DNA from: Hypomesus transpacificus
Lineage: Eukaryota > Chordata > Actinopteri > Osmeriformes > Osmeridae
Assembly: GCF_021917145.1 (NCBI RefSeq)
Contig: NC_061071.1
Location: forward strand, 5,811,037 to 5,875,036
Length of the DNA: 64,000 nt
Direction of reading: 5' to 3'
In this document: one piece after another, positions 29,138 through 38,100 of the stretch
How positions within the stretch are numbered: position 1 is the first letter of the stretch
How the letters are laid out: each line of letters opens with the position of its first letter
Notes under the pieces: generated by a model
Database searches by the model: none
The model's input: the letters and a program-made list of their open reading frames with translations, nothing else
Told to the model about the DNA's origin: nothing
Made by a program: the position numbers and the translations under genes

Positions 29138-32100
29138 ATGGCACCTAAGAGAGTCAAAAGCGGCACAGTCTCCACACCTGCTGCAACGGCTGTTGGAAAC
29201 AAGGCGTGGGACGCTGGGCTCACTTCTGCACAGTTTGACGAGGCAAGTAGAGCTACTGTAGGTTATTCTAAGTATATTTTATTTTATAAATCGACTTTCA
29301 AAACCGGGGTTTCAAGGTGGGTCCGTGTAACTGGTGGCCGTGTTTTTTTTTCTTCTATTTTAAAACCCGTGTTGACAAACACAATATATAGGGCCGTAAT
29401 AATTGTCACTAGAGTTCTCAAGTCAAACACACTTTCACAGTAGGGTTAACGGCTTGTATTGGGTTGTCGCTATCGTTTTCTTTTTGAATAATGAAATAAC
29501 CATATAACAAAAATGGTATAACAAGCCATTAATGGTCGGTTTGATTATTCCATATCCTTTATGCTGGTATCTGCAAGAAAAAAAAGACAAATAGGCTCGT
29601 TTTGTCCATTTCGGATGTCAGATCCAGACTGTGGGAAAATACTTTTTGATCGGTTTCCGTTGTTTTGTTTTATTTTGGAATAACGGAAGAACCATATAAC
29701 ACAAATGGTATGAAGGACCATTTATGCGTTTGTTTGACAGTCCATATTATGCATGCTGGCACAGGTGAAAAGGAGAGAGAGGGGGAGAGACGTGTAGTGA
29801 TTGGAGGTGTTCCGAACACCAGAGAGCAGCAACGACTAGCTTTTTTACTTGTAATTTATAGGCCTATTTGTATTATCTTGACAACACGTTCTTTAGTAGA
29901 AGACACACACAACAAGCTGGATGTACATGTTGACCGAGTTTGCTAGTTACTTGGTTAATAAATTATGATCTTTGATGAACATAAGTTTTTTTAACAGCCT
30001 ATAACGGATGAAAAAACAACCAACCAGGAACAGCACATTTTGAATTGCCAAAACAAGTCCATAATCCTGTCCCATGGCGGAAAGGGATGGAAACCACATG
30101 AAGAAATAAACTAGCATATTGTTTAGGGGCATATTATAGTTTTTATGATTATCATGAAACAAACGTAGTGTTAACAATGTTGATTTTAGTCTTTAACAGA
30201 TCATCGTAAAAGTTTGTTTGATAACTTTAGAAACTTTTTTTGGTAAATCTTTTATTTGACCCTTTTGTAGATTTTAGTTTTTTTGACCTTTCCAAACTTT
30301 TTGTAGAAACAATTTTTCAAACCTTTAGAAACGTTGCTAGCCACACCAAGAATTGTGTTCGCCCCGCCATGTAACAAGCAAGAAAATGGTGTATTCTATT
30401 GTGTATGTATTCACACTGAAATTCACACATCGATTGAGCCCCACGACTGTATAGATGACTTAAATAGTGTTGCAAATCACCTAGACCCATGTCAGAATGT
30501 CAAAATGCAAAAACTCAAGAATGTATATTTTGGGAGAGGCCAAGTTCAGTTTGGGGCGGTTAATGATGCACTGGGACGGTCCTGGAACAATGAGGGAAAA
30601 GGTTAGTTGCGACCCGGGCCCTGCCCTGCCCTTCACTACTCTAGTGGCGTAGTTTGGTGTGTATATACAGTTCTGTGCAAAAGTTTTAGGCAGAAATAGA
30701 GTAAACAGTAAAACTATAATGCTTTAAGAATGAATGGAAATGAAAAGGCGAAACTCAGTTTTTGAACAACGTTGCACTCGCAGTATTGCCGCCCAAATAC
30801 AGAAGAAGAAAAAGATCAAATGAATATACAAATGAAAAGACAAAATAATGTACAAATCTTGGAGGACGAAGACTTTTTGCACAGTACAGTAAATACAGGG
30901 TGTAAGTACTGTAAATGTTCTCCGGTGGTGTCTGTGGTCTGGAATTTGTGAAATAGTTGTTTTTATTGGCCCCTTCCAATAACGTAAGGGGGTGTCATAT
31001 TCTGAACTTTGTCTGCTTATGAAAGGCTGAAACAGAGGAACACATCTCAGCTTGACTCCAGTCAGTGTTTATAGATCCATGTTTCATTAGCTGGGGTTAA
31101 ACTGACAGCAGAAGCGTTAGTATTTCAGCCAGGTTGACCTGAGGAGCCAGCTTAGTCTGTGTTGTCTTGGCTGTGGTGGAGAGAGCTCGCAGTACCAACA
31201 CACCAGTCACCTGAAATATCCAGTCAAAGCCTGAACAGAAACCCAAATGGAGATGCGAGGACCACAGAGCCTTCTTGACAGTGGTTGGACTTCCGTATTC
31301 AGGGAAAACCCATTTCAGAAGAGGCATTTCTCTCTATGGCTCTAGTGTTTAGTGTGAGCAAATCTGAGATAGTTTGGCATGATTGCCTTGTGTGAAATAC
31401 GTAGTACTAAGCATGCTCTACACACTAATCCTACCAAGGTATGAGAATTTTGTTTTAGACAAATTGTTTTCCCCGGGAGGGGAAGTGCACCGTTCCTGGA
31501 GGTACTGCAATACCAGGTCGATGCGTGGAGTGGACGGAGCAAGCCCCTATTCCATCTCCCTGTTCCAAAAATCAATTTAATATATGGTCCCCGGGTAGGG
31601 GACGTATCAGATATTAAACTGATAAGAACAGATTTTTTTTTTTTTTTTTTTTTTTTATTTTCTTCAAAAAAAAAGAAAAAAGAAGCATTAATCAATTCTA
31701 AAAACGTTTCATAAAAGACAATCAAACAAGACAGTCACAATATACAATTCCCCACAAGGGTACAGGACAAAAGCCCCACAAGGGGGCGCACATTTCAATT
31801 ACCCCCTAGGGGGTTACAAGTGGAAGTCCAAGTTTGACGGGGTCAATCGAGGCTTTCGCCCCGATGGCTCCGTCTCCCTCTCCTCCCGGTCGTCCTCGCC
31901 AGTGGTACTCGAGCGACTGGCCCTCGGCTCTCGGTCGCGACGGCCCCTGGGAAGGCTCCATCCCTTTGCCACTGCTCCCAGGCTGCTAGTCGAGCGACTG
32001 GCCCTCGGCCCTCGGTCGCGACGGCCCCTGGGAAGGCTCCATCCCTTTGCCACTGCTCCCAGGCTGCCCTTCGGCGAGGATTTCCTGTTCCTCAGTCTTC

Positions 32101-35100: not shown

Positions 35101-38100
35101 TAAATCTATTAAGAATCTGTTCTTATCAGTTTAATATCTGATACGTCCCCTACCCGGGGACCATATATTAAATTGATTTTTGGAACAGGGAGATGGAATA
35201 GGGGCTTGCTCCGTCCACTCCACGCATCGACCTGGTATTGCAGTACCTCCAGGAACGGTGCACTTCCCCTCCCGGGGAAAACAATTTGTCTAAAACAAAA
35301 TTCTCATACCTTGGTAGGATTAGTGTGTAGAGCATGCTTAGTACTACGTATTTCACACAAGGCAATCATGCCAAACTATCTCAGATTTGCTCACACTAAA
35401 CACTAGAGCCATAGAGAGAAATGCCTCTTCTGAAATGGGTTTTCCCTGAATACGGAAGTCCAACCACTGTCAAGAAGGCTCTGTGGTCCTCGCATCTCCA
35501 TTTGGGTTTCTGTTCAGGCTTTGACTGGATATTTCAGGTGACTGGTGTGTTGGTACTGCGAGCTCTCTCCACCACAGCCAAGACAACACAGACTAAGCTG
35601 GCTCCTCAGGTCAACCTGGCTGAAATACTAACGCTTCTGCTGTCAGTTTAACCCCAGCTAATGAAACATGGATCTATAAACACTGACTGGAGTCAAGCTG
35701 AGATGTGTTCCTCTGTTTCAGCCTTTCATAAGCAGACAAAGTTCAGAATATGACACCCCCTTACGTTATTGGAAGGGGCCAATAAAAACAACTATTTCAC
35801 AAATTCCAGACCACAGACACCACCGGAGAACATTTACAGTACTTACACCCTGTATTTACTGTACTGTGCAAAAAGTCTTCGTCCTCCAAGATTTGTACAT
35901 TATTTTGTCTTTTCATTTGTATATTCATTTGATCTTTTTCTTCTTCTGTATTTGGGCGGCAATACTGCGAGTGCAACGTTGTTCAAAAACTGAGTTTCGC
36001 CTTTTCATTTCCATTCATTCTTAAAGCATTATAGTTTTACTGTTTACTCTATTTCTGCCTAAAACTTTTGCACAGAACTGTATATACACACCAAACTACG
36101 CCACTAGAGTAGTGAAGGGCAGGGCAGGGCCCGGGTCGCAACTAACCTTTTCCCTCATTGTTCCAGGACCGTCCCAGTGCATCATTAACCGCCCCAAACT
36201 GAACTTGGCCTCTCCCAAAATATACATTCTTGAGTTTTTGCATTTTGACATTCTGACATGGGTCTAGGTGATTTGCAACACTATTTAAGTCATCTATACA
36301 GTCGTGGGGCTCAATCGATGTGTGAATTTCAGTGTGAATACATACACAATAGAATACACCATTTTCTTGCTTGTTACATGGCGGGGCGAACACAATTCTT
36401 GGTGTGGCTAGCAACGTTTCTAAAGGTTTGAAAAATTGTTTCTACAAAAAGTTTGGAAAGGTCAAAAAAACTAAAATCTACAAAAGGGTCAAATAAAAGA
36501 TTTACCAAAAAAAGTTTCTAAAGTTATCAAACAAACTTTTACGATGATCTGTTAAAGACTAAAATCAACATTGTTAACACTACGTTTGTTTCATGATAAT
36601 CATAAAAACTATAATATGCCCCTAAACAATATGCTAGTTTATTTCTTCATGTGGTTTCCATCCCTTTCCGCCATGGGACAGGATTATGGACTTGTTTTGG
36701 CAATTCAAAATGTGCTGTTCCTGGTTGGTTGTTTTTTCATCCGTTATAGGCTGTTAAAAAAACTTATGTTCATCAAAGATCATAATTTATTAACCAAGTA
36801 ACTAGCAAACTCGGTCAACATGTACATCCAGCTTGTTGTGTGTGTCTTCTATTAAAGAACGTGTTGTCAAGATAATACAAATAGGCCTATAAATTACAAG
36901 TAAAAAAGCTAGTCGTTGCTGCTCTCTGGTGTTCGGAACACCTCCAATCACTACACGTCTCTCCCCCTCTCTCTCCTTTTCACCTGTGCCAGCATGCATA
37001 ATGGTCCTTTATACCAGTTGTGTTATATGGTTCTTCCGTTATTCCAAAATAAAACAAAACAACGGAAACCAAGCATTGAGTTACTAAAGTGACAAAACAA
37101 TTAGGGCCCTATTTGATTGATCTATTGTTAGTCTAATTAGCTAGCTCTTGTTATATTAACTTTAATGTGAAATAACAGAAGTTACAAAAAGACCTCCCGA
37201 AGACCCCCCCGAATCATAATGATATTAAAATTGAGTTTTTATAAGTACTCTACTGCTTAGTCATAGAGTTTGTGTTGTGTCGTTAGGACTCGTGGCGGGC
37301 CAGTATTTCTCTAGTGGTGGGGGAGCGTCTGGAGGACGAGGAGCTCATTTCGGCTCTCCAGCTGGCGATGCTGCAGCCCACCCGCCGGCTCTTCAGCTTG
37401 GTGTCCAGGGAGACCACCCTGGAGAAGGTAGCTCGCTGGTTGGGTTAGCAATGACTACAGAATATCCATTACAGTGTATTGATACCTCCTATCTAGCAAC
37501 AACACTGTATTTGGGTGAAAACAGGAACACTTTACCAACACAAGCTGTATATAAGTATCTCTGGTAGGTCTGTGTCCGAGTTGGGGACAGTTTTGGCCAC
37601 ATTTGGAACACTCAGTGACACCGTCCCATCCAATAGATCCACGAGCTGGGCAATCCAAAAACCAAGAAGACCAAGGATTCCCCCATGTTCTGGGAGGTAG
37701 GTCTACCTACTTCTACAATGGATGGCGATGGGAACCTCCAAAGATGTTTGCCAGACTCCCGGATGACATGCAGTATGGTTTGACCAGCGTGTACGTGTGT
37801 GAATGCGTGTGTGTAGGTGCTGGAGGCTGCCAAGGCCTTGCTGGATGCAGGGGAGGAGCTGCCGGCTGACCTTCTGGGGAAGGTGCTGAAGTTCCAGCTG
37901 CTGGGAGTGAAGACCAGCGACCAGCAGAGGAGAGCCGCCGAGCAGAAGGTGATCGATCACCAGGAATCAGATCCAGAGGATCATCAATAATCCGATCAGT
38001 CATCTTTTTCTTCGCTGTCCCTGTCATGCTGTTCGAGCTGTCGGTCCTTGTCGTTGATTATGTACGGCACTGCAAGACCTCTGCCAAATGAATACAAGTG

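Follow-up and report, generated by a model that had tools for sequence, protein, structure and literature searches.

SINEU elements, short non-coding elements with a U1 or U2 small nuclear RNA (snRNA) head, were reportedly described in crocodilians by Kojima in 2015; they are thought to be moved by a long interspersed element (LINE) of the Tx1 clade, and their preferred target is said to be the Mariner transposon. R2, in 28S rRNA genes, lies inside a multicopy RNA gene and is co-transcribed from the host promoter. Here we analyse a window of 64,000 nt from the fish Hypomesus transpacificus (contig NC_061071.1, positions 5,811,037 to 5,875,036 of the forward strand; assembly GCF_021917145.1), in which two facing U2 snRNA genes are interrupted at the same base, the left one by a non-coding sequence resembling a short interspersed element (SINE) with a U2-derived head, the right one by the 3' end of a LINE, here called LINE B. 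A second LINE using this base elsewhere in the genome is called LINE A. The SINEU class is named in a Repbase table (PMC5753468). Keno inserts 37 nt into U2 with the 3' flank TCTGTTCTTATCAGTTTAAT (PMC6136364; PMC4640811), and Utopia, a U2-specific LINE of the NeSL clade, has a 3' target flank from U2 nt 39 onward, with tandem insertions in U2 genes in one family (PMC4640811).

As in SINEU, the U2 snRNA-derived head belongs to the element. Unlike SINEU, it occurs in a fish, has a body of GC-rich structured RNA, and prefers as its target the gene supplying the head, which is used by 10 of the 20 copies that have a 3' end. SINEs headed by an snRNA are known as such; what sets the present one apart is that it lands preferentially in the gene from which its head derives. 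LINEs A and B share with Keno, a U2-specific LINE of the Tx1 clade known in fish, the target base and an apurinic endonuclease (APE)-type domain in the second open reading frame (ORF2); they differ from it, as compared by its description rather than its consensus, in forming two lineages and in that LINE B also occurs outside U2. Utopia was ruled out as the identity of the LINE, as it has a restriction-like endonuclease whereas the LINEs here carry an APE-type Exo_endo_phos domain. The SINE resembles R2 in lying inside a multicopy RNA gene and, presumably, in being transcribed from the host promoter; this would however be an snRNA promoter, the head of the element is the retained 5' end of the host gene, and the inserted rider has no coding capacity. 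No description of a U2-headed SINE in fish was found in the titles and abstract openings searched; as Repbase and subscription journals lay outside this search, such an element may already be catalogued.

A U2-headed SINE-like family in broken U2 genes

Coordinates are given within the window, and C-numbers denote contigs of the host genome searched (437 Mb). The gene content, as judged by eye, a UnaL2 element and the named relatives of the LINE all agree with a fish host. Rfam matches both U2 3' halves, the right one at 35078-35268 (+) with 129.3 bits and the left one at 31480-31684 (-) with 128.8 bits, at a gathering score of 46. On the minus strand the left break reads poly(A)/TCTGTTCTT at 31633/31632, and the right break reads TTAAGA(A)/TCTGTTCTT at 35115/35116; both fall at U2 nt 38/39. 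This agrees with the first-pass annotation, which had proposed, from the letters of the window, two inward-facing U2 3' halves cut at one base and joined to two unrelated 3' tails, a poly(A) on the left and a LINE end on the right. Its further claim, that U2 nt 1-27 lie beyond the left insert, is right as to the presence of a U2 5' part and wrong as to its extent: the similarity reaches nt 48 and therefore overruns the break. A search of the window allowing up to 3 mismatches gave no U2 5' part belonging to the right copy; the only one found in the whole window is that at the left insert. The sequence before the head is 83-86% identical to the upstream region of an intact U2 gene on C3, therefore the left copy was once a genuine U2 gene. 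A 166-bp tandem duplication, 97% alike, lies within this upstream region at 32961-33295.

The two U2 3' halves and their downstream flanks form an inverted repeat with arms of ~2 kb and 98.5% identity, differing by four substitutions, one of them at the junction, and one 26-bp indel. On the assembled sequence, a simple assembly echo appears to be ruled out, since the arms, the outer flanks and the 5' parts of the two U2 halves all differ. An assembly chimera is likewise an unlikely source of the junctions between U2 and the inserts, because identical junctions were found again on other contigs. A second facing U2 pair resembles the arrangement in the window, with an intact gene at C3:6012619 (-) and a SINE-filled gene at C3:6020661 (+). 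Facing pairs of this kind may date back a long time, with gene conversion maintaining their similarity.

A whole-genome search with the body of the left insert, the head being left out, revealed a family of 24 loci (all 24 candidates scored), and a search including the head returned the same set except for a 77-bp piece on C22. Junctions were read for 23 of the 24 loci, with the C22 piece left out. A 3' end is present in 20 copies, and in 10 of these the A-tract is joined to U2 nt 39 at the exact 38/39 break (C12, C42:70k, C42:181k, C162:7k, C162:23k, C158, C3, C179, C14 and C17:16.6M). The other ten are located outside U2 genes, and so are two copies truncated at the 3' side (C42:201k and C82). 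A remnant on C169 has no 5' part and continues into U2 3' sequence. All ten U2-site copies have U2 upstream sequence before the head (only 74 nt at C162:7k), whereas no such similarity was found at any of the 12 copies outside U2 genes. The recurrence that the first-pass annotation had asked about was thus observed in nine further U2 genes, and its description of the left insert as a short polyadenylated partner that is not a LINE fits a SINE-like family with A-tract tails. The strict U2 specificity it had expected fails for this family by its own test, as half of the 20 copies are elsewhere.

The insert shares general SINE traits: it is short and multicopy, has an A-rich tail, and target-site duplications flank 7 of the 10 copies that retain a 3' end and lie outside U2. 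Pfam gave no credible match for the ORFs of the inserts in the window. The duplications measure 87 nt (C17:17.1M), 10 nt (C1), 14 nt (C23 and C2), at least 8 nt (C368) and ~13 nt (C372, read by eye as the script missed its 3' flank), the seventh being that of C369:1.1M with 14 nt. Among 90 mismatched flank pairs used as a control, 6 reached 7 letters and 1 reached at least 9, with one side empty in 9; the single pair of at least 9 letters may combine C2 with C17:17.1M, which both lie in the same type of repeat. The U2-site copies are 72-100% identical to the window copy and belong to different subfamilies. Over ~700 nt, a single substitution separates the C12 copy from that on C158, and likewise from that on C1; two separate it from C17:17.1M, and two from C162:23k. 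This near-identity indicates that the family was active recently.

Filled genes could also be compared with empty ones. Upstream of the insert, as far as U2 nt 48, the filled gene on C179 and the empty gene on C4 are 99.1% identical over 549 columns; downstream, from U2 nt 38 on, the identity is 99.8% over 489 columns, and U2 nt 38-48 are present on both sides of the insert. Possibly, C179 represents a different haplotype of this part of C4. For the filled C3(+) and the empty C3(-) gene the corresponding values are 98.9% and 100%.

The head aligns to U2 nt 47 or 48 in all 22 SINE copies with a readable 5' part. It starts at nt 1 in 19 of them, at nt 2 in two (C2 and C372) and at nt 5 in one (C368). 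In the window copy, the similarity past U2 nt 28 was matched by 6 of 5000 letter shuffles and by 8 of 5000 40-mers of the window. As the head is present in 12/12 examined copies outside U2 genes, between unrelated flanks and where no U2 gene lies, it travels with the element, and the reading of the U2 5' part as plain flank had to be given up. The letters of the head point the same way at several U2 sites: the C3 and C12 heads carry C23, while the intact facing partner on C3 and all six intact single-type U2 genes read carry A23; the C158 and C162 heads read CTCA, while the intact U2 units read locally have CTCT in 24/24 cases. Generally, head letters differ little inside a subfamily. The head of the young subfamily is closest to the C23/G38 array variant (4 differences in 48 nt), several other copies fit the variants equally, and the C369:290k head retains the native GTAGTATCTGTTCTT letters. 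C at nt 23 was also considered as an element mark common to LINE A and was dropped, as it occurs in 73 of 106 intact U2 units, counted as exact letter-pattern matches in the stretches fetched. Genome-wide U2 counts are lower bounds (46 of 16,050 U2 candidates scored).

The 5' region of the SINE has a conserved RNA fold. The first 230 nt fold with -135 kcal/mol as compared to -99.7 kcal/mol in shuffles (z -6.69, 0/200), and 715 nt of the element give z -4.10 (20 shuffles), while the LINE end gives z -1.40. In an alignment of 22 SINE copies, 16 of them distinct, 97.4% of the cells predicted to pair do so, versus 33.8-53.5% when the partners are slid. Changes on both sides of a pair were observed in 29 cells, versus 9.2 in shuffles and 0-3 in the slid versions; as events, such double changes are few, e.g. 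in columns 37:58, 38:57, 185:212 and 194:203.

LINEs at the same U2 base

The right insert was read as a separate, 5'-truncated insertion of LINE B, which struck the facing U2 gene at the identical base. Four close copies of its end were found (97-100%, on C12, C42, C16 and C26), with weak pieces on C7. The C42 copy lies in a U2 array and has open ORF1 (654 aa) and ORF2 (1157 aa), while no U2 follows the 3' end on C16 and C26. Hence, strict U2 site specificity fails for LINE B as well, with 2 of 4 copies outside. At C42 192485-198200, LINE B stands directly behind a copy of A', a 3.6-kb derivative of LINE A, in one U2 gene, with a 14-nt duplication (U2 nt 39-52) between them; the U2 site thus remains usable once occupied.

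LINE A measures 6.4-6.7 kb with open ORF1 and ORF2, and all three array copies have U2 nt 39 as 3' flank, as does the one LINE B copy in the array stretches and that in the window. Pieces of LINE A also occur on C194, C82, C17, C12 and C316, with flanks outside these counts. A' has an open ORF1 and no long reverse transcriptase (RT) frame, and uses the same U2 base. The four complete A' copies read are mutually 99.0-99.9% identical (C42:176214-179832; C162:26229-39900); A' is non-autonomous yet keeps ORF1. The stretches fetched from C42, C158 and C162 contain 14 incomplete U2 3' parts. Of these, 12 begin at nt 35-39 behind an insert (SINE in 4, LINE A in 3, A' in 4 and LINE B in 1); the remaining two, both on C158, begin at nt 9 and nt 25.

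ORF2 of both LINEs contains Exo_endo_phos (the APE endonuclease), RVT_1 and zf-RVT domains, and ORF1 contains CCHC and ZCCHC3-type RNA-binding domains. Over the aligned ORF2, LINE A and LINE B are 33% identical. The nearest solved structure is LINE-1 ORF2p, and among 120 of 686 matches listed for the LINE B RT, the nearest named relatives include those of the fish Oncorhynchus (53%) and Prochilodus (52%). The suggestion of a Keno-like LINE behind the right insert is supported: the genome holds full-length LINEs with open ORFs at the same junction, with APE and RT domains in ORF2. A first protein search with a long read-through frame returned nothing, and scanning viral and genome contigs for both the LINE and U2 yielded no relative of the LINE and one contig of a cyanobacterial bin with U2 letters.

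A third U2-linked, LINE-like sequence was observed at C42:60001-68262, where it follows native U2 nt 1-33. It has RT-like frames, and blocks of its DNA are 67-72% similar to LINE B; the stretch read showed no U2 3' part. The array at C42:121786-191776 holds 73 identical U2 units with A23C and A38G. A38G adjoins the insertion point, in the branch-site recognition sequence (GTAGTG), and is no absolute block, as insertions are present inside this array.

Origin of the head and route of spread

The left insert is a copy of a non-autonomous, non-coding, snRNA-headed SINE-like element, with a head of U2 nt 1-47/48 and a poly(A) tail. We consider it likely that this element is transcribed from U2 promoters and moved in trans by Keno-like, U2-targeting LINEs. 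In a U2-seated SINE, the first base coincides with U2 +1 and is preceded by U2 upstream sequence that looks intact. Such a copy would be transcribed from the external U2 promoter of the host gene, starting at U2 +1, giving an RNA with a U2 head. A Keno-like LINE would nick the bottom strand at U2 nt 38/39 and, through target-primed reverse transcription, copy the SINE RNA beginning at the poly(A) end. As the U2 head of the complementary DNA (cDNA) matches the U2 5' end of the target, the upstream junction would be seamless, and the new copy would again stand directly behind a U2 promoter. Relaxed landing would explain the copies elsewhere, which begin at or near U2 nt 1 without a U2 promoter and are probably dead ends. 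Two clues concern the partner LINE: the tail of LINE A is A-rich, and the extent of the LINE B duplication matches that of the head.

Several observations speak against this interpretation. Half of the SINE copies with a 3' end lie outside U2, which implies a relaxed enzyme or a further LINE that moves the RNA as well. Among the matches listed between the SINE 3' tail and LINE A, A' and LINE B there are only short A- or T-rich ones, and with no common 3' tail the partner LINE is unproven. The case for transcription of the SINE from the U2 promoter is drawn from genomic DNA; proximal and distal sequence element and 3'-box motifs gave only weak, unspecific matches, hence the presumed promoter activity rests on similarity to intact genes. 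The U2-site copies C42:181k and C17:16.6M show native-like letters up to ~nt 33, so the first part of the head may there be target-derived. Three outside copies (C44, C4:9.9M and C369:290k) lack a duplication, and the repeat of C369:1.1M is not directly at the element start. Finally, two of five covariation measures are not above shuffles (double-change pairs, 5 vs 4.8; further pair types, 23 vs 26.3).

The repeated nt 39-48 at U2 sites look like a target-site duplication, and LINE B does leave one of 14 nt on C42. The U2 5' part might accordingly be target flank only, next to a headless, poly(A)-tailed RNA inserted with a short duplication. This is highly improbable given the head in every examined copy outside U2 genes, and given that the C3, C158 and C162 heads are unlike their host U2 genes. 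Gene conversion or array duplication of one founder could instead have been the chief means by which U2-site copies spread, rather than repeated targeting. It would suit the nearly identical inverted arms of the window, the near-identity of the A' copies, which array turnover predicts, and the C3(+) upstream region, 100% identical to that of its facing partner over 480 nt. It seems distinctly unlikely as the main route, since the U2-site SINEs belong to different subfamilies in genes whose upstream regions differ, and near-identical SINEs occur in array-type (C158, C162) and single-type (C12) genes, again with different upstream regions.

The SINE RNA may also stem from an internal (Pol III-like) or other promoter, the head having been left by a single template switch of the kind that gives snRNA chimeras, and U2 seating being irrelevant to transcription. 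That copies are about as numerous outside U2 genes as inside, and that the head varies little within a subfamily, fits such an origin. We nevertheless hold it to be unlikely: the head is retained across subfamilies, and the strict A/B box consensus is absent from both strands of the two SINE copies scanned, which may still have a degenerate promoter. The outside copy C4:9.9M has moreover the CTCT form of 25 array U2 units, as if sourced there, in this one copy only.

Beyond the likely U2-promoted, LINE-mobilized SINE, we see roughly even chances that source gene and target gene are the same throughout, with each on-target insertion restoring a U2 promoter at +1 and only U2-seated copies acting as masters while those elsewhere are dead; the U2 arrays would then be nurseries shared by the SINE, the ORF1-only derivative and two or more LINE lineages. 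SINEs usually have an internal promoter. An element under an external snRNA promoter would have to regain a promoter at each move, and this would be solved if the head gene is also the preferred landing gene; transcription would then be expected from U2-seated copies only, and all these elements would cut U2 beside the branch-site recognition sequence. The locus shows several retroelements using one base of an essential splicing gene and breaking part of its copies.

Features of the window

Coordinates of the features discussed (positions within the 64,000-nt window)
Feature	Position	Strand	Basis or remark
Inverted repeat, left arm (U2 3' half and downstream flank)	29652..31637	-	
U2 snRNA gene 3' half (nt 39 to end), left	31480..31632	-	Rfam match
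U2-headed SINE-like element, 743 nt (U2 nt 1 to poly(A) end), at U2 nt 38/39	31633..32375	-	
Element A-tract (T-run on + strand), joined to U2 nt 39	31633..31661	-	
81-bp tandem duplication in element body	31909..32067	-	
GC-rich hairpin chain, structured 5' region	32147..32345	-	fold z -6.69, 0/200 shuffles
U2-derived head (U2 nt 1-48)	32329..32375	-	best fit C23/G38 array variant, one T deleted, 3 substitutions
Left U2 gene upstream region, resembling that of intact U2 genes on C3 and C4	32376..34561	-	
27-bp stretch, end of U2-upstream similarity to LINE start	34562..34588	.	
LINE B ORF2 C-terminus	34588..34887	+	
LINE B 3' end, 5'-truncated, ~527 bp, APE-type; 3' end at U2 nt 38/39	34589..35115	+	
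Inverted repeat, right arm	35111..37070	+	
U2 snRNA gene 3' half (nt 39 to end), right	35116..35268	+	Rfam match

Apart from these features, the window contains a UnaL2 LINE 3' element at 10564-10617 (-), with 60.1 bits.

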